A stretch of 64,000 bases of DNA, from the NCBI RefSeq assembly GCF_001700965.1, contig NZ_CP016756.1, positions 2,470,501 through 2,534,500 on the forward strand, read 5' to 3'. Of the stretch, positions 4,651 to 39,258 are shown one piece after another; positions within the stretch are counted from its first letter, which is position 1; each line of letters opens with the position of its first letter. This DNA comes from Stenotrophomonas nitritireducens. GTDB taxonomy: Bacteria > Pseudomonadota > Gammaproteobacteria > Xanthomonadales > Xanthomonadaceae. The notes under the pieces are model-generated. The model was not told where the DNA came from and searched no databases. It saw only the letters and a program-made list of their open reading frames with translations. A program made the position numbers and the translations under genes.

Positions 4651-5262
4651 GTCCCTTCCCCCGCCAGCGGGGGAAGGTGCCCGAAGGGCGGAAGGGGGGC
4701 GCTTTTGACGTTGCTTGTGCTATTGCCGACAAGCCAAGGCAGCGGGAGGGCCAAAGCCAAAGCCAAAGCCAAAGCCAAAGCACCCCTCACCAACCGCCCC
4801 TTGGCCTACGGCCAAAGGGAGGGAGCAGATTGCCGCGGCACCCGGCGATGCCAGCCCGCAAGCAATACCTCAGAACCCCAGTGCCGTCCCCTCTCCCGCC
4901 TGCGGGGGAGGGTGCCCGAAGGGCGGGTGGGGGGAGCTTTTGATCTTGCTCATGCTGTTGCTACAAAGCCAAAGCACCCCTCCCCAACGCGCCCGGCCCG
5001 AAGGCACAGCCTTCGGTCGCTCATCAGGCCGCGCGCCAGTGGCGCACAAGCAGGCCTTCTTCACCCCCTTGGCCTGCGGCCAAAGGGAGGGAGCAGATTG
5101 CCGTGGCATCCGGCGATGCCAGGCAGCAAGCAATACCGCAGACCCCAGCGCCGTCCCCTCTCCCGCCTGCGGGGGAGGGTGCCCGAAGGGCGGGTGGGGG
5201 GCGCTTTTGATCTTGCTCGCGCCCCAAAAGCCAAAGCCCCCACCCCAAGCCTCTCCTGCGCT
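4651..5262. repeat. Composite stem-loop repeats with 268-bp tandem duplication
   Basis: The 800-bp gap between the lyase gene and the defence island is almost wholly repeats. There are G/C-rich stem-loops (for example 4653-4675), five tandem copies of the hexamer GCCAAA at 4749-4778, and composite units made of a CCCTCTCCCGC/GCGGGGGAGGG stem, a TTTTGATCTTGCTC spacer and a CACCCCTCCCC stem. The segments at about 4797-4951 and 5065-5217 are near-identical copies offset by 268 bp. No open reading frame here looks coding. Confidence 0.85.
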
Positions 5263-5305
5263 GGCGCGCCATAGAGGGGGCCGGCGCTGAGCGACGCTGT
5301 GGATC

Positions 5306-7213
5306 TCAGAGCACTACGGCCTCTTGGACCTGACCATCACGTACAGAAATCAATAGTTCCACGGGCTTTTCGTTCTCCAGCATCAATGAATCAAATTCGC
5401 GCTGAAGTTGCAGGGCGTCCTGCTGAAGTGGAGGCAGTGTTGCCATCTGGATGATCTTGAGGGTTTCGCGGCTGGCCTGCAGTTCAATGCGGCTGTCGCC
5501 ATATGCGGAGAATGCTCCAAGATGCGCGTTAAGCGCAGTCTCGATAAGCCCGGCAAGCCCATGCTCGCCCAACATCTGATTGAGGTCCTCCCGGATCGCC
5601 TTTTCGCGAACCTTCACTGTGAGCGCGGTGCCCGGGAAGCTGCACAGCAAACGGCACGCCATCATGCGCGCCGCCAGACAAAGCTTCCATTGATTGGCAG
5701 ACTCCTGGAACTCAGTCTGCAACTCGATCAGCTTGTCGCGGAATGTCCCCATTCCGAACTTTCCTTCATCCTTCGCGTTTTTGACCTGGTCAAGAATGGC
5801 GTCAAGCTCGGCCTTCAAATGCTTCTGCTTGGCAAGAAGCTCCGACTCGTAGTCCTCCAGCTTCTGTTCAATAGCCGGCCTCAAGTCGCCCTCAAGAACC
5901 ACGGGGGCCACCTGCTGGAGGTACTCGATGGCGCCCTTCATGACACTGTCACGTTCCAGCTTCTGGAAGCTGGCGATCTTATCCACGTCCTTCTTGATCT
6001 GGTCCAGTCGCGCGCTGATATCCGCCAAATGCTTCTGTGCAAGCGCGAAGGAGGCGACGTTGAATAGGGCGCCAGCATTGACTACATCGCTGATGTTGCC
6101 CTCAAACAAACGAGCATGTTCGGTAATGTGCTTGCCATCGTGGCTGAAGCCGCGGAACCCGTTGCCATCCCGCGCGAGTTGCAATGGGCCGTTGATAACG
6201 ACCTTCATATAGTTTTCGCCGCTGATCGCGTTGGCGGCCAATGCGGTCGGGGCTGCCTGCATCAACGAGGAAAGCCGGCTGATGCCCTGCTTTTTTGGAT
6301 TGATTCTGCGGCCATGTGCCGGCATGCCAGTGATGGCGGCCTGCATTATCGAAATTGCATGCTCGCCGTGGCCGTCCTCCACTACCAGGGATTCAGTGGT
6401 AGGAATTTCCAATGGTTCGAAGGCCTTGCCGGCAGTGCCCGGCTCAGCTATTGCTTCGTTAGACTGTTGAACAAGCCGCAAGCGAATAAGATGATTGATA
6501 CAGGGCAGCGTTACACGGTGAGAAGAAACCATGTTGTTCAGCTTGCCCTTCATGCTGGGTGGAAGCTTGCTCGCTGCTACCTTGCCTACAGCAAAGCCGA
6601 GAAGGCCACCTATGGCTCCACCCGCTCCTCCACTTGCGTTTTCCACGGGGCTTGAGTTCTGGTGTAGCGCTGCAGTATCGAAATCGCTGCTGCAAAGAAG
6701 TTGAGCGAGTCGCAGCAACCCTGCTTTTCCATCAAGCGCCGTATTTGCAGCTGAGAACGATGCTTCACACTCAAGGGTGGTCGCAATTTTTTCCTGGTCT
6801 ACCGCAGTTCCGTGCTCCCAAAGTATCTTCAACTGCTGGCGCAGAAGGGTCTCCTCCAGTAGCTGCACTTTCTTGTCTTTGGGACCGGTATGGCCGAGAT
6901 AGGTGAGCGTGTCCTCAAGCAGTTGCTCATACGATATACCAGAGCCGCGAACCACATTGGCCAGGGCATTGCCACCATAGTGTTGAAGCTCGGCGACCAA
7001 TACCTCGGCGGCGCCTCTGGTCAACGTGTCGTGCTTCAGAATCGTCTGGCATAGCTTTTTGACAGCGGACCCGGTAGCCAGCCGCCCATCCTCGCCATCT
7101 GTCAGGTTGAACAGAAGTCCGCGAACATCGCTGGGCAATGCTGCCAAGATTCGATCGACGAGGTAATCGTTGCCGCAGATGTCCAGCGATTGCGTAGTGC
7201 TTTCCATGCTCAT
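5306..7213 (-). CDS. Unknown 635-aa protein: YaaW-like motif, glycine-rich segment, coiled coil
   Basis: Not assigned to a characterised family. Residues 68-105 (AAEVLVAELQHYGGNALANV, then RGSGISYEQLLED) resemble the ELQxFGGN...RGxGxxYxEIL signature I associate with YaaW/DUF3944-type proteins. Residues 193-215 are a glycine-zipper-like hydrophobic stretch (GGAGGAIGGLLGFAVGK) that could insert in a membrane. Residues about 330-385 are a compact domain with NGFRGF and EHARLFEGN. Residues 395-520 are strongly heptad-like (QIKKDVDKI, KLEDYESELLAKQKHLKAEL). It is the last gene of the type I restriction operon, 84 bp after the DUF262 gene. An effector of anti-phage defence acting on membranes is plausible but purely inferred. 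Base composition is less GC-rich than in its neighbours, fitting acquired DNA. Confidence 0.8.
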   Translation of the reverse strand: MSMESTTQSLDICGNDYLVDRILAALPSDVRGLLFNLTDGEDGRLATGSAVKKLCQTILKHDTLTRGAAEVLVAELQHYGGNALANVVRGSGISYEQLLEDTLTYLGHTGPKDKKVQLLEETLLRQQLKILWEHGTAVDQEKIATTLECEASFSAANTALDGKAGLLRLAQLLCSSDFDTAALHQNSSPVENASGGAGGAIGGLLGFAVGKVAASKLPPSMKGKLNNMVSSHRVTLPCINHLIRLRLVQQSNEAIAEPGTAGKAFEPLEIPTTESLVVEDGHGEHAISIMQAAITGMPAHGRRINPKKQGISRLSSLMQAAPTALAANAISGENYMKVVINGPLQLARDGNGFRGFSHDGKHITEHARLFEGNISDVVNAGALFNVASFALAQKHLADISARLDQIKKDVDKIASFQKLERDSVMKGAIEYLQQVAPVVLEGDLRPAIEQKLEDYESELLAKQKHLKAELDAILDQVKNAKDEGKFGMGTFRDKLIELQTEFQESANQWKLCLAARMMACRLLCSFPGTALTVKVREKAIREDLNQMLGEHGLAGLIETALNAHLGAFSAYGDSRIELQASRETLKIIQMATLPPLQQDALQLQREFDSLMLENEKPVELLISVRDGQVQEAVVL

Positions 7214-7297
7214 GGTGAATTCTCTTTACGTGAGTCGTGCCAGTGACGGAGCTGCGGTGAGCGCGACGCTCACCACAGTTGCCGACATCAGTAATCT

Positions 7298-9109
7298 TCA
7301 GTTGGAGCCAGACGGCTGGTCGTTCGCGCTGGTCTTGGCCATCGCGGCCTTGATCAGCGACATCAGGCCTTCGGAACGTTGCGCATAGAATCCATCGAAG
7401 TCGTCGCTGCGCATGGCTGCACTTGGAATGCCATGGCTTTGAAGCACGGCATCCATCTCGGTGTCGCCGAGCTGCACTTGTTTGTCCTGCTGCAGGGAAC
7501 TGAGGTACTGCGAGGGTGCCGCGCCGCCAATCTTGCGGTTGGCGCGGTAGGAGATCGCGGTCTTGTTGATGATGGAGTCGTATACCTTGGCTTCGATGCC
7601 CTGCTTGATGCACCAGTCGCGCGGGAAGATGTGGTGGATGTCCAGCGCCACATCATCGGCATCCAGTTCGCGGATGCTGGACTTCCAGTAGAAATCCTTG
7701 GCACCACCGCGTTGGACCAGAACATTGACCCCTTTGTAGGCCGCGCTTTGGCGGCTGCGCAGGGACTTGAGCCGGTCGGCCTGGAAGTTTGCATCCTGTA
7801 CGGTGCGCGGCACCTGGCTGTCGTCGTCCAGCCAGGCCAGTACATCTTCAACATCGTTGGCGACGCGGGTTTCCACTGCGCCGCCGTAGAGCTCACCCAG
7901 CACGCCGCACCAGTACCAGGAGGCCAGCTTCTGGTAGATGCGCGGCTCGCGCCAGCGGTTGGGCCCAAGTTCGGCCATGACCGCAGCCAAAGGCGCCAGC
8001 TGGGTGCGATAGGGAAGGTCGCGGGTCTGCCTGACGCATTCATCGCGCAGGAATCTTGCAGCCTGGACGAAGCCACCTTCCAATGCATCGGCGCGTTGCT
8101 TGTAGGCATCCAAGGGCAGCTCCAGCACGGCGGAGCGCTTTGCACTTACCGGCGCGATGCTCTTGCCCTGCTTGTTGGCAGCAATGTCTTCGCGGCGGCG
8201 CTGCAAGGTGTGCAGCAAGGTTATCGATTGCAGGAAGTCGGTGTTCTGCACGGTTTCAAGCAGCGCTTCGGCGTTCTTCATGCGCTTGTAGCGTGACGGC
8301 GTCTTGCGTTGCGCGCTGCCGTACCAGTCATCGCGCAGGTTGTAGCCGTCGGCGGCATAGCTGGCGGTAACCAGTTCAAACACCGACAGCGGAACGCCGC
8401 CGGTGTTGACCTTCTCGAACACCAGGCATACCGCTTCCTTGCTGGTTTCCTTTTTCAGCACGATCAACGGCAGCTGGTACTCGTTATAGGCATCCAGCAC
8501 GGCGTCCTTGAATTCGAAGAACTGTGCAACCGCGCCAGGATTGTGCTGGTACAGATCCTTCAGCCAGCTCATCGGATCGAGGATGGCTGAGCAGGGGAAG
8601 TACAGGTGTTGGCACTCCAGCTCGCGGGTGGACAGGTCCAGATCCAGCTTGCGCTTGAATTCGCTGCGTTGCTGGCGGGTCTCATCGGTGGTGATGATGG
8701 CGTCGTCCAGCCGGTCCGGGCCATCCAGGGCGGTGGGGATGTGGATGTAGTAGTAGCGCTGGACGTCGCGTCCCTTCTCGTTGCGGGTCTGCACCGGGCC
8801 ATCGAGCTTCAATACCTGGGTCAGCGTGGTCAGGCGCTGCTGGCCGTCGAGGATCAGTTGCTCGGGTGCAAGCAGCCCTTGCTCGGGCACGTTTTCCACC
8901 GGGCGTACCTGGAAGCGCACCTGGCCGCCGGTCTCCAGCAGCATCACCGCGCCTACCGGGAATGAGCGACCAAGGCTGACCAGCAGGCTGCGGACATGTT
9001 CGTCATCCCAGACCCAGCCACGCTGGAAATCCGGCAGCTGGATCTTGCCTTGCACGATGTCTTTGAGCAGCTCTTTGAGCGGCAGTTTGGTGCTGTCGAA
9101 TGTAGTCAT
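7298..9109 (-). CDS. DUF262/DUF1524 protein, GmrSD-type endonuclease
   Basis: A 603-residue protein fusing the two halves of GmrS/GmrD-type enzymes. The N-terminal DUF262 domain (ParB/sulfiredoxin-like nucleotide-binding fold) shows LPDFQRGWVWDDEHVRSLL (about 25-43) and the hallmark ILDGQQRLTTL (about 86-96). The C-terminal DUF1524 domain carries the His-Me finger motif DIHHIFPRDW (about 488-497). Family members cut modified, often glucosylated hydroxymethylcytosine, phage DNA using NTP hydrolysis. It starts 29 bp after hsdS on the same strand, so a type IV-like activity sits inside a type I operon. Both catalytic motifs are intact, so it is probably active. Which DNA modification it recognises cannot be read from sequence. 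Confidence 0.9.
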   Translation of the reverse strand: MTTFDSTKLPLKELLKDIVQGKIQLPDFQRGWVWDDEHVRSLLVSLGRSFPVGAVMLLETGGQVRFQVRPVENVPEQGLLAPEQLILDGQQRLTTLTQVLKLDGPVQTRNEKGRDVQRYYYIHIPTALDGPDRLDDAIITTDETRQQRSEFKRKLDLDLSTRELECQHLYFPCSAILDPMSWLKDLYQHNPGAVAQFFEFKDAVLDAYNEYQLPLIVLKKETSKEAVCLVFEKVNTGGVPLSVFELVTASYAADGYNLRDDWYGSAQRKTPSRYKRMKNAEALLETVQNTDFLQSITLLHTLQRRREDIAANKQGKSIAPVSAKRSAVLELPLDAYKQRADALEGGFVQAARFLRDECVRQTRDLPYRTQLAPLAAVMAELGPNRWREPRIYQKLASWYWCGVLGELYGGAVETRVANDVEDVLAWLDDDSQVPRTVQDANFQADRLKSLRSRQSAAYKGVNVLVQRGGAKDFYWKSSIRELDADDVALDIHHIFPRDWCIKQGIEAKVYDSIINKTAISYRANRKIGGAAPSQYLSSLQQDKQVQLGDTEMDAVLQSHGIPSAAMRSDDFDGFYAQRSEGLMSLIKAAMAKTSANDQPSGSN

Positions 9110-9138
9110 GGTGGCTCCCCTCAGCCTGGTTGATGTGG

Positions 9139-10473
9139 TTAGTGTGCTGCCGTCTTGCGGCCGCGCTTGGGTTTTGGTTCGGCGGCGCGCTGGGCGGCAA
9201 TGCGCTCCAATAGCACGCTGGCCGGTTCGTCATTCGGATCCTGCGGTACCAGCTCGCCACGGAAGGCTTTGGCCAGGATGCTTTGGGTCAGCGCGTCGAC
9301 GCGCTGGCGGGCATCAGCCAAACGGGCTTCTAGTTGGTCGGCGAAGACGAAGAGTTGTTCGACGCGGCGGACGATCTCGTATTGTTCATCGCTAGGAGGA
9401 AGGGGAATGATTAGCGGGGCTATGTCGGAATTGTTGATTTGAGGAATTGCAGTTCCGGTATTGAGTTTTGCGAGATCAATGGTCTCGAGCCAGCGGTAGA
9501 CGTAAAGCACTTCAACGCCGGTTGGGACTATCAGTCCCATTACGTTCAAGTCGACGAATGATTCCTCTTTCAGAATCCTTTTCTTATTCGTCGCGATGGC
9601 TCCCCCTCTTTTGGGAAATACAATGGATCCAGCTGGTAAGAGAGCTTTCTCTGAGAAGTCATCCAAGGAGAGATATCGACCAGTTTCATGGAGGTAGAGC
9701 TCATTCCCCTTGAGGTTCATCTCTCCAACTTTGAAGTACTTGTGACTTCCCTCGTGGTGCTCTAGGTCTATAGAGGCGGCGATACCGCTTTTCAATCTGC
9801 ATAGTTCGCCGACAGCGATGCTTTTCCATTCGCGATTGCCATAGTTCTTGCGCCAATTTTCGGTAAGTTTTCCCGATGTAGCTGTTTCAAGCACTGATTC
9901 TCGGAAGTGTTTTATCAGTGCAGGCAGGGTGTCAAGGCGGGCCTTGAGGGTGTCCACCTGAGCCAGTAGACCGTCGAGCGCCTGTGCGATGCGTGCTTGC
10001 TCAGCTACCGGTGCAACCGGCACCTTCATTCCACCCAGAGTCTTTAGATAAATCCCTTTCTGCGCAGTTCCTTTCGCATTCTTCTCAAAGAAGGATTGGG
10101 CTTCCGGAGATTCAAGAAGGTAGCTCAGATACTTTGATGCAATTGCGTCCGGCTTGAGGACTGCCACGCTTCGCTGCAAGGTGAATTTCTGATGCGAATC
10201 AAGAGCTATTGCGGTTCGACCAATTGCGCCGACTATAGTTAGTAGTACGTCGCCAGGGGTGATGCTTGTCCGCTTGTCCTCATGGTCGAACGCATCTTGG
10301 CTGATCAAACGATATTCGTCGAAGCTTATTTTTCGTGCCTTAATGTTTTTAGCGCTAAGCATCGGCAAGCCCGAGGGCATGCCCGCGGGTGGATTGTGCG
10401 ATCCATCAGTAATTCGATTGCAAATTGTGTCGAGATCCACGACGCACCAGCTTTCAGGAATTTTCCAGTTCAC
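9139..10473 (-). CDS. hsdS: Type I restriction enzyme specificity subunit HsdS
   Basis: A 444-residue specificity subunit with the usual two target-recognition domains, about residues 1-150 and 205-360. Each is followed by a conserved helical spacer: PVAPVAEQARIAQALDGLLAQ near 155 and PPSDEQYEIVRRVEQLF near 350. HsdS binds the split DNA target and joins two HsdM subunits. Its ATG overlaps the hsdM stop codon by four bases, indicating translational coupling. GC content falls within the recognition domains (AT-rich stretches around 9420-9800 and 10030-10400), as expected for the variable exchanged parts of hsdS. The C-terminus ends in a basic PKPKRGRKTAAH tail. Confidence 0.95.
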   Translation of the reverse strand: MNWKIPESWCVVDLDTICNRITDGSHNPPAGMPSGLPMLSAKNIKARKISFDEYRLISQDAFDHEDKRTSITPGDVLLTIVGAIGRTAIALDSHQKFTLQRSVAVLKPDAIASKYLSYLLESPEAQSFFEKNAKGTAQKGIYLKTLGGMKVPVAPVAEQARIAQALDGLLAQVDTLKARLDTLPALIKHFRESVLETATSGKLTENWRKNYGNREWKSIAVGELCRLKSGIAASIDLEHHEGSHKYFKVGEMNLKGNELYLHETGRYLSLDDFSEKALLPAGSIVFPKRGGAIATNKKRILKEESFVDLNVMGLIVPTGVEVLYVYRWLETIDLAKLNTGTAIPQINNSDIAPLIIPLPPSDEQYEIVRRVEQLFVFADQLEARLADARQRVDALTQSILAKAFRGELVPQDPNDEPASVLLERIAAQRAAEPKPKRGRKTAAH

Positions 10474-12020
10474 AGAACAGAGCCCTGATTTGTCATTTCG
10501 CCAATTTCCATCCCCAGTACCTGTGCCAACAGTTGCTTCTGCTGATTGGCCTCATCGCCCGCGCCCAAGGCCTGCATCAACGCATCCAGCTCACGCAGCG
10601 CCTCGCTCAACTCCGCCATTGCCTGCGCGGCCAGCTCTTCCGGCGGCGGCAGATTTGCGGCATCCACCGCATCGGCATCCTTCAACCAGCTGATATCCAG
10701 CGAGTCACCCCGCTCGGCGATCTGGGCGCGGGTAAAGCAACGGAAGCGGCCTTCTTCGCCTTCATCTGCGCGCGGGCTGCCGCCATCGCGGTCAGTACCA
10801 TAGGCATCTTCAAACGGCTTGAGGTGCGTGGCACCAAACGGCGTGCGCTTGCCAAAGGACGGCATATTGCTGCGCAGGTCATAGACCCACACGTGCTGGG
10901 TGCAGCCGGTGTCCTGTTTGGAATTGGTAGCGCTGCCCTTGCGGAAGAACAGCACATTGGTCTTTACACCCTGTGCATAGAAGATGCCGGTAGGCAGGCG
11001 CAGGATGGTGTGCAGCTCGCATTTGTCCATCAGGTCGCGGCGCACATCGGTGCCGACACCGGCTTCAAACAGCACGTTGTCCGGCAGCACGACTGCGGCG
11101 CGGCCATGTGGTTTCAGGTTGCGGTAGATGTGCTGCAGGAAGGCCAGCTGCTTGTTGCTGGTGACAAACGGCAGGTCGTCACGGCTTGGCCCGCCGCCGC
11201 CCTTGGCGGTGCCGAATGGCGGATTGGACAGGATCACATCGGCGCGTGGCAGCTTTTCGCCCAGGCTGCCGAGGCTGCTACCCAGCCGCACCACGCCTTC
11301 GTCTTCACCGTGCATGCCGTGCAGCAGGCAGTTCATCAGCGCCAGGCGGCGGGTGCCGGGTACCAGCTCTACGCCGGTATAGGCTTTGTTGCGCTGGAAC
11401 TTGCGCGCCTTGTCGGTGACCTTGGGGCCATACAGATCATCGTGCTCGGCCTTGATATAGGCGTCGGCGGCGATCAGGAAGCCCGCAGTGCCTGCAGCCG
11501 GGTCCTGGATGATTTCGCCCAGCTGCGGTTGGATGCAGCGCACGATGCTGTCGATCAAGGGGCGTGGGGTGAAGTACTGGCCGGCACCGGACTTGGTCTC
11601 GCCGGCGTTCTTTTCCAGCAGGCCTTCGTAGAGATCACCCAGCCCGTCCTGACGGGCGGAGAACCAATCCAGCCCGTCCAGGCTCTTGATCAGCTGCTCC
11701 AGATGGCGCGGCTCTTTCAGGCGGGTCTGCGCATCGGTGTAGATGGCGGCCACCATCGGGTCGCTGTTCTGGCTCAGGTTGAGCAGCATCTGCTTGTAGA
11801 AGGTATGCAGCGGCACGCCCGACTTGCTGGTCAGGTCGGGCCAGCGGGCACCCTTGGGCAGGCGGTGCTCGAAGTTGTCGTTGGACTGGGCCTGTTCGTA
11901 TTCCATCTTCACGAACAGCAGCAGCACCAGCTCGGTGACGTAATCGCTGTAGTTGATGCCGTCATCGCGCAGGATGTCGCACAGGTTCCATAGTTTGGCG
12001 ACGATGTCGTTATTGGTCAT
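10470..12020 (-). CDS. hsdM: Type I restriction-modification methyltransferase HsdM
   Basis: A 516-residue N6-adenine methyltransferase subunit. The N-terminal HsdM helical domain begins NNDIVAKLWNLCDILRDDGI. The catalytic domain has the SAM-binding motif DPAAGTAGFLIAA (about 165-180) and the adenine-methylase motif IV NPPFG (about 265). A GQYFTPRPLI segment precedes the SAM motif, as in the family. With HsdS it methylates the host target; with HsdR it restricts unmodified DNA. Its start overlaps the end of the Fic gene by four bases and its end overlaps hsdS by four, so fic-hsdM-hsdS form one coupled unit. Confidence 0.96.
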   Translation of the reverse strand: MTNNDIVAKLWNLCDILRDDGINYSDYVTELVLLLFVKMEYEQAQSNDNFEHRLPKGARWPDLTSKSGVPLHTFYKQMLLNLSQNSDPMVAAIYTDAQTRLKEPRHLEQLIKSLDGLDWFSARQDGLGDLYEGLLEKNAGETKSGAGQYFTPRPLIDSIVRCIQPQLGEIIQDPAAGTAGFLIAADAYIKAEHDDLYGPKVTDKARKFQRNKAYTGVELVPGTRRLALMNCLLHGMHGEDEGVVRLGSSLGSLGEKLPRADVILSNPPFGTAKGGGGPSRDDLPFVTSNKQLAFLQHIYRNLKPHGRAAVVLPDNVLFEAGVGTDVRRDLMDKCELHTILRLPTGIFYAQGVKTNVLFFRKGSATNSKQDTGCTQHVWVYDLRSNMPSFGKRTPFGATHLKPFEDAYGTDRDGGSPRADEGEEGRFRCFTRAQIAERGDSLDISWLKDADAVDAANLPPPEELAAQAMAELSEALRELDALMQALGAGDEANQQKQLLAQVLGMEIGEMTNQGSVL

Positions 12021-28914: not shown

Positions 28915-33112
<4,198 letters not shown>

Positions 33113-33224: not shown

Positions 33225-33710
33225 ATGGTTCGACGATTTTTGACCGGCACGGAGGCTGTTGTTTCCGCAGCTCCATTGCTGGATCGCAGCCGCGCTTCGG
33301 TCGGCACAATGCAGTCGCCGCAGGTGCGGCTGCATTCATTGCGGCAGCCGCGCTCCGCTGAGTACGTAAAGGCTGTGGCCGGATTGGACACAGGCGGACA
33401 CGTACATGATCGCCAGGCGCTGGATGCCTTGAAGGCGATCATCGACAAGGAGCTTGGGGCACTGGTTGCCGACGAGCAGCTGCTTGGCATCGTGTCGCGT
33501 TGCTATCTGGGCTATCCCTACGAGGTGCATACCCTGGCGCTGGGCGGCTTCATCATCGATCACTTCAAGATTGGTCAAGCGCTGCCGCTATCTCTTGAAA
33601 GAGCACGGACGCTGGCCTTGCACCGTTCCTATGCGTTCATCGAGGTATACGCAGCACGCATGGTGGCGGTCAGTGAATCCGGAACAACGGCAATCATCGA
33701 AGGAACGTAA
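33225..33710 (+). CDS. Unknown 161-aa protein, first gene of AAA operon
   Basis: Not recognised. The N-terminal 45 residues look disordered and basic. Residues about 50-161 are predicted mostly helical, with LDALKAIIDKELGALVADEQ, LLGIVSRCYLGYPYEVHTLA and IIDHFKIGQALPLSLERART. The last segment, ALHRSYAFIEVYAARMVAV, resembles a small regulatory or adaptor domain. There is no signal peptide or membrane segment. The ATG has an AGGGGA ribosome-binding site. Its TAA stop overlaps the next gene's ATG by one base, so the two are coupled. Presence in the operon suggests it is a soluble partner of the ATPase or membrane protein (inference). Confidence 0.8.
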   Translation: MVRRFLTGTEAVVSAAPLLDRSRASVGTMQSPQVRLHSLRQPRSAEYVKAVAGLDTGGHVHDRQALDALKAIIDKELGALVADEQLLGIVSRCYLGYPYEVHTLALGGFIIDHFKIGQALPLSLERARTLALHRSYAFIEVYAARMVAVSESGTTAIIEGT

Positions 33711-35422
33711 TGAGCGGGCAGAGGATCATTCAGATGGCGGACCTTTCCGCCATCAGCAGCAACCTGCGGGCAATCAATGGCGACATCCAGTCGTTGAGCA
33801 ACCAGGTGGGCTATGTCCAGTCGAATGTCGAAGACACGCGCGACAGACTGGAGCAGTTGCAGCGGGCATTTGATGCCTTCGTGGCTGCCGATGCCAAGGC
33901 CAAGGAACTGGGGCTGGCGGAGACACGCCATGTCAAGATCCGCCAGGAACTGGAGGCGCGGTTTGGCCATCATGGTGAGGTGAGGCGGCAAACGACCGGC
34001 ATTCTGCAGGCCGCGGACATCAGGCTGGTCCGGCAGGACACGATCCGCGCGGCAACCGAGCAGCTGATGCTGGCAGCACCGGGGTATTGGCTGGCGCCGG
34101 CGCTGGTGGCCCTGGCTGCGTGGCTCAACGACAATCGTGATTTGGCCGAGCGTGGTTTGGCCGAGGCGGTACGCCGTGACGATGAAAAGACCAGTCTCCT
34201 GTTTGCACTGGTCTGCCGCCGTGCCGGACGTCTCGGTGCGGCCCAGCAATGGATGGAGCGCTATCTGGCGCAGCAGAATCCGGTGCTTCTGGATCGTCAG
34301 ACGGTGATCTTGATCGACGCCATTGCCGGTGGTGTCTTCGGGTTGGAGACGGCACAGGCTTGCATCAAACGCACTGCGGAGTGGGTGGATGAGCTTTCCC
34401 AACGGGCGGGCTTTGTCGAGGAACAACGTACCCAATGGATAGATGCGCTGCGCTTCAAGACGCCCAATGCAGATGATGGCGAACGCTTTGCAGCGCTGAA
34501 GGAACACAGTGTGACCTGGCCTGCGCTGCAGGCGTCGCTCAATGGCTGCGCCACCCATGCAGTGGTCACCGAGCATTTTGATGCGGTGTTCTCGGGGCCT
34601 GCAAAGGCCACCAACAGTCTTGTCGCCGACGTGGACAGGCTGTTGGAAAAGCTGGTTTCGCATTTTGACGATGATGAACTTCCGCTTCGCCGGGAAGAGG
34701 AGATGTGTCGGCTCATCATTTCCGAAAGTGGTGACCGGGCCATTGCGCAGAAGCGCTTTGATCTTCAGGAAAAGACGTTGGAGGAGCAGGTCAGCTTCAC
34801 CCAGCTCCTGACCAATGCAGCGATGCATCCGGAGACCAGCCATGCATCGCGCGCGACGCAGCGCTTTGCCACGGCACAATCGCGCGACTGGATTCTGGAT
34901 GCTCATCAGGACTTGACCGCACAGATTCGCGCGCAGGTGCCGGTGGATATCACCCTCAAGGTGTTGGACTGGACGGGAGTGACACGCGACGGCGGCAACC
35001 AGCAGGAGTTGGAGGCTGCACTCGGTGCGCATATCGACCAGCAGCTGCAGGCTGCATTGGCCAAGGTGAAACTGGGCGTGTTGCATTGGTTGGGTGTCGG
35101 CTTGGCGGCCCTGTTGTTGCTTGCCGGTTTTGGTGCACTGGTACCAATGGCCATGGGTGCTGGCTTGTTGTTGTGGGTGGGCTTTGCCTATAAGAACCTG
35201 GATAACGTGCGCGCACGGGTCAAGGCGCAGTTCCAGCAGACACGCGAACACGCGCTGCAGGTATTGAAAGCCTGCATGGCCGAAGTGGTTGAGGTTCGGC
35301 GTGAACTCGCCAAGCGCGATGCCCAGGCCGAGTCCTTGCCTGCCCTGCTTGAATCCATCAGTCCGGAGCAGTTCGCCCTGAGCGGACACGACAACACCCG
35401 CCGCGTACTGGCGACTGCCTGA
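33710..35422 (+). CDS. Unknown 570-aa protein with coiled coil and membrane hairpin
   Basis: Not recognised. Residues about 8-60 form a heptad-rich coiled coil (ISSNLRAINGDIQSLSNQVG, VEDTRDRLEQLQRAFDAF). Residues about 115-230 are Ala/Leu-rich helical pairs reminiscent of TPR or HEAT-like repeats (LAPALVALAAWLNDNRDLAE). Residues about 450-500 hold two close hydrophobic spans (LHWLGVGLAALLLLAGFGAL and GAGLLLWVGFAY), forming a hairpin. The remaining C-terminus is helical. No enzymatic motif is visible. The topology (coiled coil, soluble helical domain, hairpin) suggests an inner-membrane scaffold or receptor. The gene is the largest in the operon besides the ATPase and is coupled to the preceding gene. 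Confidence 0.82.
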   Translation: MSGQRIIQMADLSAISSNLRAINGDIQSLSNQVGYVQSNVEDTRDRLEQLQRAFDAFVAADAKAKELGLAETRHVKIRQELEARFGHHGEVRRQTTGILQAADIRLVRQDTIRAATEQLMLAAPGYWLAPALVALAAWLNDNRDLAERGLAEAVRRDDEKTSLLFALVCRRAGRLGAAQQWMERYLAQQNPVLLDRQTVILIDAIAGGVFGLETAQACIKRTAEWVDELSQRAGFVEEQRTQWIDALRFKTPNADDGERFAALKEHSVTWPALQASLNGCATHAVVTEHFDAVFSGPAKATNSLVADVDRLLEKLVSHFDDDELPLRREEEMCRLIISESGDRAIAQKRFDLQEKTLEEQVSFTQLLTNAAMHPETSHASRATQRFATAQSRDWILDAHQDLTAQIRAQVPVDITLKVLDWTGVTRDGGNQQELEAALGAHIDQQLQAALAKVKLGVLHWLGVGLAALLLLAGFGALVPMAMGAGLLLWVGFAYKNLDNVRARVKAQFQQTREHALQVLKACMAEVVEVRRELAKRDAQAESLPALLESISPEQFALSGHDNTRRVLATA

Positions 35423-35432
35423 GGAATACCGA

Positions 35433-35627
35433 ATGACACGTCAATTGCTTGATGGCACCTTGCCACCGCCGCTGCCACTGGAAGGGGCGGCCCCGCCCCT
35501 GCCGAAGTCAGAGTCCGCGCCTGTCACAGCAGTGCAACCGGCCGCACCGGTAATGGACGCACTCGCGGGTGCATTGCCTGGGTGGGACCTGCTGCCTGCC
35601 AACGGCTTTGTCCGTCGCCGGCGCTGA
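35433..35627 (+). CDS. Small Pro-rich protein in AAA operon
   Basis: A 64-residue product, PLPLEGAAPPLPKSESAPV in the middle and a basic GFVRRRR end; no fold is expected. It is supported by a GAGGAA ribosome-binding site, only 10 bp after the previous stop and 8 bp before the next start, and codon usage like its neighbours. It may be an unstructured linker or tether for its partners (inference). It could be missed by automatic annotation. Confidence 0.65.
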   Translation: MTRQLLDGTLPPPLPLEGAAPPLPKSESAPVTAVQPAAPVMDALAGALPGWDLLPANGFVRRRR

Positions 35628-35635
35628 GTGGTGTG

Positions 35636-36181
35636 ATGCCGGTTTTGGCTCCCCATACTTATGCCGACTGGAGCATCGCCCTGGAACGGTTCGCGCAAGG
35701 TGATGACGATGACGCCGTGTTGCTGTCGATGGCGCAGGGTCGGCTTGACTGGACGCCAGGCGTCGCCACGTTGTTCAGTGAGCGCATTCATGCCGTGCTC
35801 GACCTGAGGGTGCAGGCGTTGTCGACGCGACTGGATCGCAGCTTCAGCTACAGCCGGGATGAGGTCGAGGTGGTGCGTGCGCTTCTGGATGCGCGTCGTC
35901 ACCTTGGGCTGCTTCATAGGTTGGCAAGCGTGCCTGCTTTGCCGGATGTGCTGCGCAAGCACCTGTTGGAGCTGCTCGAAAAGGTCGCCCAGCGGATGCA
36001 GCAGTCGCTGGAGGACAGTGCCCGCAGGCAGAATGCCGAGGCATTGCTCAGAACGCTGCGCCACCACGACCTGCGGCATTTCCATTCGAGCACCGTAGCT
36101 GCACCGGCCGCCGCCGGCGCATCTGCGAGTGATGCGGCACCCTTGCCAGCGCCGTCGCGACGGCGCTCTTTCCTGGTTTGA
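35636..36181 (+). CDS. Unknown 181-aa helical protein in AAA operon
   Basis: Not recognised. An almost entirely helical, soluble protein. It begins APHTYADWSIALERFAQGDD, continues with RLDWTPGVATLFSERIHAVL, and has a helical core LLDARRHLGLLHRLASVPAL and LLELLEKVAQRMQQSLEDSA. The last 35 residues are Ala/Pro/Ser-rich and basic. The start at 35636 was chosen over an upstream in-frame codon that lies inside the small Pro-rich gene. It ends two bases before the ATPase ATG. A substrate or adaptor for the ATPase is plausible (inference). Confidence 0.8.
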   Translation: MPVLAPHTYADWSIALERFAQGDDDDAVLLSMAQGRLDWTPGVATLFSERIHAVLDLRVQALSTRLDRSFSYSRDEVEVVRALLDARRHLGLLHRLASVPALPDVLRKHLLELLEKVAQRMQQSLEDSARRQNAEALLRTLRHHDLRHFHSSTVAAPAAAGASASDAAPLPAPSRRRSFLV

Positions 36182-36183
36182 AA

Positions 36184-37740
36184 ATGACAGACGCAGTTGA
36201 GTTCAAAGCAACATTGACCCGCTACCTGAAGGCGCGGGTGCCGTTCATCTCGATCCGCAGCACCGAGCGGGCACGTGTGTTGGATATCCTGCGCGAAGTG
36301 GCGGGGAGCCTGAGTGCTCCCTTCTACGTGCATACGCTTTCGCAGGGCACCCGCGAGCTGGCGACCGGGCGGGTGGTCAACGAGGACCGTTCGGTCATTG
36401 GCGCGGTGGATTTCGCAAGCCAGCAGATGGCTCAGCGGCAGAACCTGAGCTTCGTTTTGACCGAGGTATCGGATATGGAGGATGACACCGCGTCCTCAAG
36501 GCAGTTGATCGATGTGGTGATGCTGGCTGCCGACCACGGTGGGTCCTTGGTGGTTGTGACCAGCAAGCCGATCTTCGGGCAGTTGCAGCGGCTGGGCATG
36601 TCCGCACAGTTGTCGGCACCGAATGAAGACGAAATGGCGGCGATCATCCGCGAGCAGCTCGACCCCTATCGGGGGCAGTTCGTCATTGAGTGGGATGATC
36701 AGGACGTTGCCCGCGCAGCGGCGATACTTGCCGGTGTATCGCGGCTGGAGGCGGAGAACATCATTGCCACGCTGCTGGTGAATGGTCGTATCAGCAAAGC
36801 CGACATGGTCGAACTGATGTCAGCCAAGGATCGGATTTTCGCCGATATCAGCGGCATTGAGCGGGTCTCGGTGCGTAGTGCGGAGATGACCGTTGGTGGT
36901 CTGGGCGGGCTCAAGGCCTGGTTGCAGCGCGAGCGGCCGTTGCTTACGGCGGATCTGCGTGAGCGCGGTATTCGGCCACCACGCGGCGTGCTGTTGGTGG
37001 GGGTGCCGGGCTGCGGCAAATCCTTGTCGGCCAAGGCCATTGCGCATGATTGGCAGCTGCCCTTGTACCGCCTGGATCTGTCCACCATCCATGGGCAGTA
37101 CCTGGGGCAGAGCGAAGGCCGCCTGAAGGAAGCCCTCGCCACTGCCGATCACGTAGCGCCTTGCGTGCTGTGGATCGATGAGATTGAAAAGGGTTTGGCG
37201 GGCGCGGGTGGCAATGGCGATGGCGGCACGTCTACCCGCTTGGTAGGTCAGTTTCTGTACTGGTTGCAGGAAGCGCGTACCCGTGTGTTCGTGGTCGCCA
37301 CGGCCAACGACGTGTCGCGGTTGCCACCGGAGTTGTTGCGCCGCGGACGCTTCGACGAGTTGTTCTTCGTGGACCTGCCTACTGCCGAGGAGCGCCGCGA
37401 CATCATTGGCATCTATGCACGCAGGGGGTTGCAGGAAGGAGTCCTGGAGGAAGCGTTGCTGGACGAGCTGGTGGAGATGTCCGATGGATTTGCAGGCTCT
37501 GATCTGGAGTCAGCGGTACGCGAAGTGGTCAAGGAAGCCTACCTGCGCGGCGACGGCGTGGTTAACGACGAGTTGTTCCGCCGCAGCTTCCAGAACGTGG
37601 TGCCACTTTCGCGGACTGCACCGGAGCAGATCGAAGGTATTCGCGCATGGGGCAGGGAGCGTGCGGTGCCGGCATCGGGTGAGCCGATTGGCTCGGGTAT
37701 CGCCCCCGCGACCCGTCCGCGCCGCGCAGTACTGGCTTAA
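36184..37740 (+). CDS. Ycf46-like AAA+ ATPase
   Basis: A 518-residue protein. Residues 1-240 look like a degenerate AAA domain lacking Walker motifs ([32 protein letters not shown] in the Walker B place), as in cyanobacterial/chloroplast Ycf46 proteins. The active AAA domain has Walker A GVPGCGKS (273-280), Walker [10 protein letters not shown] (Asp332/Glu333), sensor [12 protein letters not shown] (about 372-383) and arginine finger RRGRFDE. The lid is [20 protein letters not shown]. It should hydrolyse ATP and remodel a partner protein. It is the last gene of the five-gene operon, starting two bases after its neighbour's stop. A TTG start two codons earlier is possible. Confidence 0.9.
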
Positions 37741-38040: not shown

Positions 38041-39258
38041 TCACCGCCGCAGCAGTACTTCGATCTTCCGCACCGCGTTCGCCACCCCGTTCTCGCTCAT
38101 CATCTGCCTGCCCAGTGCGGCCGCACGTGCGCGGGTCTCTGCCTGCTCGGCAAACGCCACGGCGGCAACGAGTTCGTCGTGCCGCAGCCGCTTTGCAGAC
38201 AATGGGGCCGGTGCCACCCCCAATTTCTGCAGCCGGTCGGCCCAGAAGAATTGATCGGCAGCGAAGGGCATCACCAATGATGGAACACCGGCGCGGCAGG
38301 CCGAATGGGTGGTGCCGCTGCCGCCGTGGTGGATGACCAGCGCGGCAAGTGGGAACAAAGCTTCATGCGGCACGTGGCCGATGACGTGCACGTTGGCAGG
38401 CAATGACTGGGTGGGCTGTCCAGCCCAGCCAGGAGACAGCAGCACGCGGCGCCCATCCAATGCCCTCATCAACGCAGCCAATACCGCTTCGCGGTCGAAG
38501 CCCATCATGCTGCCGAAGCCGAGGTATACCGGGGGCTCACCGGCCTCCAGAAATGCCTGCAAGGCCGGTGCCGGTGACCATGCCTGCGCTTCGTCGAGGC
38601 GCCATTGGCCGCAGACATGATGGTCGCCGGGCCAGTCGTTGATGGCCGGCAGCAGGCTGGGCGAGATGCCATACAGCATCGGCACATCACGCCACAGCGA
38701 ACGTCGTGGCGGCATGCCCAGCACCTGCGTGCGTGCCTGGTTGATCGGGCGCCGGAACTGGCGCCAGATCAATTGATTCACCAGTTGGTAGCTCAGCCGG
38801 TTGAACGCGCGCGGCACGCGGTTTGGTGGCAGGAACGGCGAGGCGAAGGCCTGGGTGGGGGTGATGGGAATCATGCCGGTGCCGATCAACGGCAGCTGCC
38901 GGTGTTCGGCCACGCTCATGCCGATGAAGGCCGCCAGCCCGCCAGTGAGGACGGCATCGCACCCTTCGGCGGCGGCATTGGCCTGGCGCATCCAGCTGGC
39001 GGTATGGCGCATGGCGATGCCGGCCAGGCCGCTGCTGGCCGCGCGCATGCCGTTGCCACTGGCTACCAGCGCGGTCACTTCCGATTGAATGTCGCCTTCC
39101 AGTCCCTGATGGGGTACGCCCAGGGCTTGTGCACTGCCCAGCGTGCCGGCGTCGGCCAGCAGGATGACCTCGTGGCCGGCATCGATCAGGCCGCGGCACA
39201 ACATGGCCAGCGGTCGGGTATCGCCTTCGGTGCCATAGGTCAGGGCCAGCAGTTTCAT
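38041..39258 (-). CDS. GT1-type glycosyltransferase (sterol/macrolide glucosyltransferase-like)
   Basis: A 405-residue GT-B enzyme. The N-domain opens MKLLALTYGTEGDTRPLAML, with GHEVILLADAG. The C-domain has the donor-binding PPVYLGFGSMMGFD (about 243-256) and VIHHGGSGTTHSACRAGVPS (about 309-328), then MPFAADQFFWADRL. These are hallmarks of UDP-sugar-dependent transfer to lipids or small molecules. The acceptor is unknown. It has a GGAGGG ribosome-binding site and is monocistronic. A short palindrome lies just upstream. Confidence 0.9.
   Translation of the reverse strand: MKLLALTYGTEGDTRPLAMLCRGLIDAGHEVILLADAGTLGSAQALGVPHQGLEGDIQSEVTALVASGNGMRAASSGLAGIAMRHTASWMRQANAAAEGCDAVLTGGLAAFIGMSVAEHRQLPLIGTGMIPITPTQAFASPFLPPNRVPRAFNRLSYQLVNQLIWRQFRRPINQARTQVLGMPPRRSLWRDVPMLYGISPSLLPAINDWPGDHHVCGQWRLDEAQAWSPAPALQAFLEAGEPPVYLGFGSMMGFDREAVLAALMRALDGRRVLLSPGWAGQPTQSLPANVHVIGHVPHEALFPLAALVIHHGGSGTTHSACRAGVPSLVMPFAADQFFWADRLQKLGVAPAPLSAKRLRHDELVAAVAFAEQAETRARAAALGRQMMSENGVANAVRKIEVLLRR

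Follow-up and report, generated by a model that had tools for sequence, protein, structure and literature searches.

We describe a unit of five genes, here called A to E, on the plus strand at positions 33225-37740 of a 64,000-nucleotide window from Stenotrophomonas nitritireducens (NZ_CP016756.1, positions 2,470,501 to 2,534,500; "the window" hereafter means this whole stretch). Comparison with relatives indicates that A to E move and evolve together as one unit, which is probably a membrane-linked AAA+ machinery. E is a familiar type of ATPase, but we could not place the five-part system. Because no description of the unit was found in the open-access literature or in family libraries, we rate it as new at the system level, within the open-access literature. 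Four parts with no family found, kept together and passed among at least five phyla, would make this a new system and not just a new gene. Since the unit stands beside toxin-like genes in some gut bacteria, it may be a conflict system that has so far escaped description.

The five genes are tightly packed, and the coordinates of the window's open reading frames bear out the arrangement reported in the initial annotation. Gene A (33225-33710, 161 amino acids) overlaps gene B (33710-35422, 570 amino acids) by 1 base; gene C (35433-35627, 64 amino acids) follows after a 10-bp gap, gene D (35636-36181, 181 amino acids) after 8 bp, and gene E (36184-37740, 518 amino acids from its ATG) after 2 bp, all on the plus strand. 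A TTG 6 bases upstream of that ATG would give a 520-residue E. The chosen starts of A and E fit their homologues, with A opening on a conserved basic-x-hydrophobic-hydrophobic hook and E on an MSDTxEFK-like start. A simple scan, whose outcome means little, found no sigma-70-like promoter for A to E.

Using 16 B proteins as queries, we found 104 relatives and read the loci of 80. Profiles for A to E were run on these 80 loci and seven others, and removal of four duplicates from the same genome or record as others (L001, L002, L004 and L087) left 83 loci. All five genes lie on one strand in 74 of the 83, with 34 in the order ABCDE and 40 in the order BCDEA; the remaining nine are incomplete. Because the same five genes share a strand in so many loci, all fetched with B, the arrangement is far beyond chance; because every locus was found through B, these counts leave room for solitary copies of A, C, D or E. 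Eight of the nine incomplete loci break off at a contig end shortly beyond their last recognised gene; among these, L044 and L085 have 0.6 and 1.2 kb after B in which no C is recognisable. Linkage in relatives, whose absence the initial annotation had named as a refutation, held in 74 of the 83 loci and has one real exception, L083, where B and C are followed by zinc-ribbon genes. The 74 complete loci include some with a fragmented or cut gene (L011, L025, L046, L060 and L086); decay or sequencing error has split E into two frames or pieces in L011, L025 and L086, and has done the same to B in L046.

Gene order tracks lineage. The ABCDE order occurs in Proteobacteria, Paenibacillus and its relatives, and Acidobacteria, and also in L011, which is filed as Peptococcaceae; the BCDEA order occurs in Clostridia and other Firmicutes, Streptococcus, Enterococcus, Fusobacterium and Bifidobacterium. 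The unit is thus present in at least five phyla (Pseudomonadota, Bacillota, Fusobacteriota, Actinomycetota and Acidobacteriota). L011 itself is a Comamonadaceae-like unit, its B 57% identical to that of the window, in a contig of a metagenome-assembled genome, and its filing is probably a binning error. Over 69 loci, the distances computed pairwise for each of A, B, D and E correlate between genes at 0.86-0.96, a figure uncorrected for shared ancestry. The initial annotation had taken the tight coupling to mean one complex. What stands is one conserved unit that joins an ATP-driven remodeller to small partners and a predicted membrane component, from which we infer the complex itself.

Proteins A to D have no convincing match in Pfam, NCBIfam, PADLOC or PHROGs, in keeping with the earlier remark that the four partners of the ATPase were not recognisable. 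Hydropathy and structural modelling agree that B is the 570-residue hairpin protein first annotated, and on these grounds it is predicted to be a cytoplasmic-membrane protein. Its model (predicted local distance difference test, pLDDT, 83) has a long N-terminal helix, a tetratricopeptide repeat (TPR)-like solenoid, a membrane hairpin and a long C-terminal helix; the hydrophobic hairpin falls at about residues 453-494 by hydropathy, with modelled helices at 457-472 and 477-549. The predicted solenoid spans residues 85-230, and TPR structures are among its fold-comparison matches, with no Foldseek match at E ≤ 1e-3. B has 1106 homologues at E ≤ 0.001. In the model of A (pLDDT 81), a low-confidence and probably disordered N-terminal tail carrying the hook MVRRFL precedes a small alpha/beta domain. 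Protein C is a proline-rich linker with the N-terminal hook MTRQLL and a C-terminal motif, LPGWDLLP....VRRRR, that varies little from phylum to phylum; some Firmicutes have a zinc ribbon, seen by eye, ahead of this motif. Protein D looks helical and, in the ABCDE order, ends in the hook RRRSFLV.

Protein E matches PF00004 at 103.8 bits and the unnamed family phrog_8638 from residue 6 to residue 498 of 518 (E 2.1e-101), so that the N-terminal half is included. Its Walker A, Walker B and arginine-finger regions are intact; the two Walker patterns recur in 25 of 25 sampled homologues and a stricter arginine-region pattern in 21. The motifs and the near-full-length match thus uphold the ATPase of the initial annotation, and we carry over its label, Ycf46, as an assumption, no search having returned that name for E. 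For a degenerate AAA domain in the N-terminal half, also proposed there, support is weak: a profile-profile comparison of the two halves of E with hhalign gave a probability of 7% (E 0.005), although the register was the expected one. The same genome encodes a second Ycf46-type ATPase (G000:C1:2133692-2135155), which shares 36% identity with E. Copies turned up in most of the relatives examined, 33 of 41 genomes, and the majority of these matches span residues ~10-500.

A short terminal hook links four of the five proteins. It consists of one or two basic residues, any residue and two hydrophobic residues, and stands at the ends of A, C, D and E. With duplicates L001, L002, L056 and L087 dropped, the hook begins A in 71 of 73 homologues, and a related tail with two basic residues ends E in 70 of 75 (RRAVLA here, TRKVLV in most Firmicutes). 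The hooks of D and C go with the ABCDE order: D ends in one in 30 of 34 such loci and in none of 45 others, and C starts with one in 22 of 34 and in 1 of 46 others. Per-site backgrounds are 0.3-2.3%; because the patterns are loose and were picked after the ends had been viewed, the counts describe the hook and do not test it. In the divergent locus L145, E is present without the tail and no A occurs in the 20 kb read; E also lacks the tail in L147, where the contig ends too early to judge A. A similar internal motif, RK[VI]L[LI]GG, was seen by eye in a Clostridial zinc-ribbon protein. Because the hook is common to A, C, D and E, these observations suggest that their ends share one dock, which most simply would be the solenoid of B.

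Judged by where it occurs, the unit is a mobile, patchy cassette that moves horizontally. Of 61 relatives, 2 contain B. Within the genus 6 of 91 genomes have it, with the unit at one or other of two positions in a single hotspot, and among 398 genomes sampled from the phylum the source genome of the window was the only one with B. Among 50,697 phage records B occurs in one, that of the Streptococcus satellite phage Javan368, where all five genes sit at the far end from the integrase. Among 72,556 plasmid records it occurs in four, all typed as non-mobilizable and one probably a chromosome. One Fusobacterium record filed as a plasmid (L005, NZ_CP084075.1; 2.1 Mb) has no gene table for the unit's stretch and looks chromosomal.

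Within the genus, the hotspot is bordered upstream by a CzcA/CusA-type efflux gene (29912-33112, plus strand, in the window), and the unit lies on either side of a glycosyltransferase-like gene (38041-39258, minus strand), depending on the species. The empty site consists of the efflux gene, the glycosyltransferase gene and two ribosomal-protein-like genes, all named by eye. We surveyed 30 glycosyltransferase loci, each with 1.5 kb of flanking sequence at either end. Apart from the locus of the window, the unit is present in two and not visible in the other 27. In 11 of these 27 the efflux gene adjoins the glycosyltransferase gene with no part of the unit between them, and because relatives have such empty sites, the insertion-like position noted in the initial annotation is supported. 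The unit directly follows the efflux gene in the window, in genome G496 and in L007, where no glycosyltransferase was found; in L008-L010 (genomes G013, G475 and G499) it lies between the glycosyltransferase and ribosomal-protein genes.

In seven loci from gut Clostridia, a HerA-type ATPase of ~890 amino acids is encoded directly upstream of B. Five of the seven belong to the 31 complete BCDEA loci in which 2.8 kb or more lies upstream; the other two loci are incomplete. The ATPase of L040 matches DUF87 at 36.6 bits (cut-off 23.2) and FtsK_SpoIIIE at 17.1, below the cut-off of 24. Short HerA-type fragments just upstream of B in L036 (9444-9956) and L041 (9652-9813) suggest that the pump has been lost in some Clostridia.

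Four Clostridial loci (L040, L043, L048 and L054) share the order zinc-ribbon protein, HerA-type ATPase, B, C, D, E, effector, one or more small immunity-like genes, and A; the beginning of such an effector also appears at a contig edge in L081. The putative effectors are large proteins that have a coil and repeats of an F[DE]DC-like motif in common but differ at the C-terminus. That of L054 matches papain-fold toxin 1 (PF15644) at 57.2 bits against a cut-off of 24.1. Those of L040, L043 and L048 have HExxH motifs seen by eye, and HD-like, ParB-like and C39-like parts were likewise named by eye; Pfam gave no match for the effectors of L040, L043 and L093. Five of the immunity-like genes had no Pfam match above cut-off. 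Further, a pair of small genes, 62% identical, follows related effectors in L048 and in L149, a locus in genome G457, and shares a domain with a gene of L145.

A profile built from unit-adjacent effectors (A6), and so biased towards finding such ones, was used to follow the coil beyond these loci. It matches 6 of 14 chosen unit-bearing genomes: those of L040, L043, L048 and L054, and G458 and G457. The effector of G457 (L149, G457:C45, 7477-11432) lies on another contig than the unit, among unrelated neighbours and with an immunity-like gene; the G457 unit itself has a HerA-type ATPase. Across 250 genomes of one family the profile matches strongly in two, G456 and G458, both of which carry the unit and are among the 14; we did not count two weak matches (E 4e-4 and 7e-4), both from genomes that lack B. 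In the same 250 genomes B is above threshold in nine. Two of the nine are weak (E above 1e-4), two are divergent copies in tandem, one is accompanied by C alone, and one stands by itself. A search for the effector in a large protein database returned two near-identical proteins, one apparently truncated.

The divergent locus L145 (G668:C1:828000-847900) brings the same kinds of parts together. Between its positions 786 and 16558 lie genes for a zinc-ribbon protein, an SPFH protein (Band_7_1), a HerA-type ATPase (HerA_C 29 bits, cut-off 22), an HExxH effector, three B-like copies, C, D and E. The short effector has a metallopeptidase-like domain in common with the L048 effector (35% identity over 161 amino acids), and a small gene has a domain in common with an L048 immunity-like gene (31% over 77 amino acids). 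By these alignments, effector and immunity-like domains are common to the unit and to its divergent version.

Because the unit is mobile and Clostridial effectors accompany it, we read A to E, with somewhat less than even confidence, as an AAA+ complex that is anchored in the membrane and acts on client proteins during conflict between bacteria or with their rivals. In such a complex E would form a ring that pulls client proteins at the membrane, B would anchor the ring and dock the terminal hooks on its solenoid, and A, C and D would act as adaptors. In Clostridia the effectors would serve as clients, with the HerA-type pump either receiving them or handing them on; the Stenotrophomonas client would be encoded outside the operon. 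This picture is directly testable in its architecture, given two gene orders, a shared hook and plug-in effectors. Several observations weigh against it. Most cassettes have no effectors. The scanned flanks encode mainly ordinary functions, such as transporters, TPR proteins and housekeeping enzymes. In addition, a locus of genome G720 (L148, 2008-9449) has B (888 bits) beside other partners, a 1175-residue Tubulin_2 protein (172 bits) and a vWA protein, with C, D, E and A unrecognisable within 17 kb. L148 is possibly another system using B, and B may therefore be a general membrane platform. The readings that follow overlap with our preferred one, and the weights we give them need not add up to certainty.

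The satellite phage, the plasmids and the patchiness hint at defence, and a stand-alone anti-phage system could sense infection at the membrane, with the hairpin of B, remodelled by E, permeabilising the membrane or blocking phage assembly. We consider this rather unlikely: the flanks are ordinary, A to D have no convincing PADLOC model, and the fold scores of B against pore formers (ClyA-type alpha pore-forming toxins) are level with those against unrelated helical proteins, with no Foldseek match at E ≤ 1e-3. An accessory role in membrane-protein quality control or envelope stress, free of conflict, in which E extracts damaged membrane proteins gathered by B, draws on the ordinary chromosomal neighbourhoods and on the widespread second Ycf46-type copy, which implies that the family probably has housekeeping members. 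Strong patchiness and transfer across phyla are unusual for housekeeping, however, and the link to toxin-like effectors and a satellite phage also speaks against this explanation, which we regard as quite improbable.

Alternatively, the unit could be the core of a toxin-export apparatus with the HerA-type pump and the zinc-ribbon membrane partner, the pump-less cassettes being reduced forms. The shared gene order of the four Clostridial loci fits export, as does L145 with its SPFH protein, HerA-type ATPase, effector, B copies, C, D and E. But most cassettes have neither HerA nor effectors, no outer-membrane or extracellular part was seen, the G457 effector lies apart from the unit, and the immunity-like genes would equally fit intracellular toxin-antitoxin use; export is thus a fairly doubtful account. 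With similarly little confidence, we entertain that the cassette is the minimal core of an unrecognised cross-phylum protein-trafficking machine, made of a membrane TPR receptor, partners that it gathers by their common terminal hook and a Ycf46-type AAA+ ring that drives clients, into which HerA pumps and polymorphic effectors plug for toxin delivery in gut Clostridia. The initial annotation had offered a stress, envelope or defence role; of these, defence is suggested by the satellite phage, the plasmids and the patchiness, set against flanks that are mostly ordinary. The best clue to function, the HerA-type ATPase and toxin-like effectors at the unit in some gut Clostridia, comes from relatives and lay beyond the view of that annotation.

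The flank scan covered 146 proteins adjoining the unit at 38 loci (150 were picked from 39 loci, and 4 of L040 were left out); the reading frames came from a crude gene caller, and some in GC-rich loci may not be genes. Pfam returned 138 families, and the first 25 of these are mostly ordinary. The idea of a defence island was not borne out: at E ≤ 1e-10, PADLOC matched 14 models, 12 in one protein each and 2 in two, a tally that, made with no control set, is not a test of enrichment. In two Enterococcus species the same ~770-residue protein, possibly HATPase_c, follows the unit (L057:14511-16823 and L075:8901-11201). In Streptococcus oralis (L072, L074 and L076) a ribosomal protein S4-like gene, identified by eye, lies nearby upstream of B, and L072 and L074 have an integrase-like remnant beside the unit, possibly from a former island. 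Elsewhere in the window, whose source genome is one contig of 4.54 Mb, positions 5001-11000 have a GC content of 0.54-0.61 against ~0.65 around them and are possibly a foreign stretch.

Among known systems, type VII secretion combines an FtsK/HerA ATPase (EssC/EccC), an AAA+ protein with TPRs (EccA) and toxin substrates. The unit differs in that A to E include no HerA or WXG family and no EssC/EccC-type FtsK ATPase; the L040 ATPase is of DUF87/HerA type, under the FtsK_SpoIIIE cut-off, and Proteobacterial units have no pump in view alongside. The IetAS anti-phage system also has an AAA ATPase, IetA, whose models E matches over the AAA domain. By contrast, E reaches 73.5 bits where the NCBIfam IetA cut-off is 510, and no protease family, to which the partner IetS belongs, occurs among A to D.

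The Clostridial neighbours resemble polymorphic toxin systems, with shared N-terminal and coil segments, variable C-termini and small genes downstream; one confirmed toxin family, PF15644 in L054, is among these shared-N-terminus, variable-C-terminus proteins. In the portion of the account of polymorphic toxins that we consulted (Zhang 2012, PMC3482391), however, no such AAA+/TPR unit is named, and neither "Ycf46" nor "AAA+" occurs. Ycf46-type ATPases are also alike, with near-full-length similarity to E, including the N-terminal half, and intact ATPase motifs. Yet E shares 36% identity with the second such ATPase of its genome and 53.5% with the E of the Streptococcus satellite phage, and it is set apart by a conserved C-terminal hook and by its companions A to D. 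The unit would also offer a setting for Ycf46-type ATPases, a name that occurs in 32 papers; among 30 of their titles, most denote plastid or algal genome reports.

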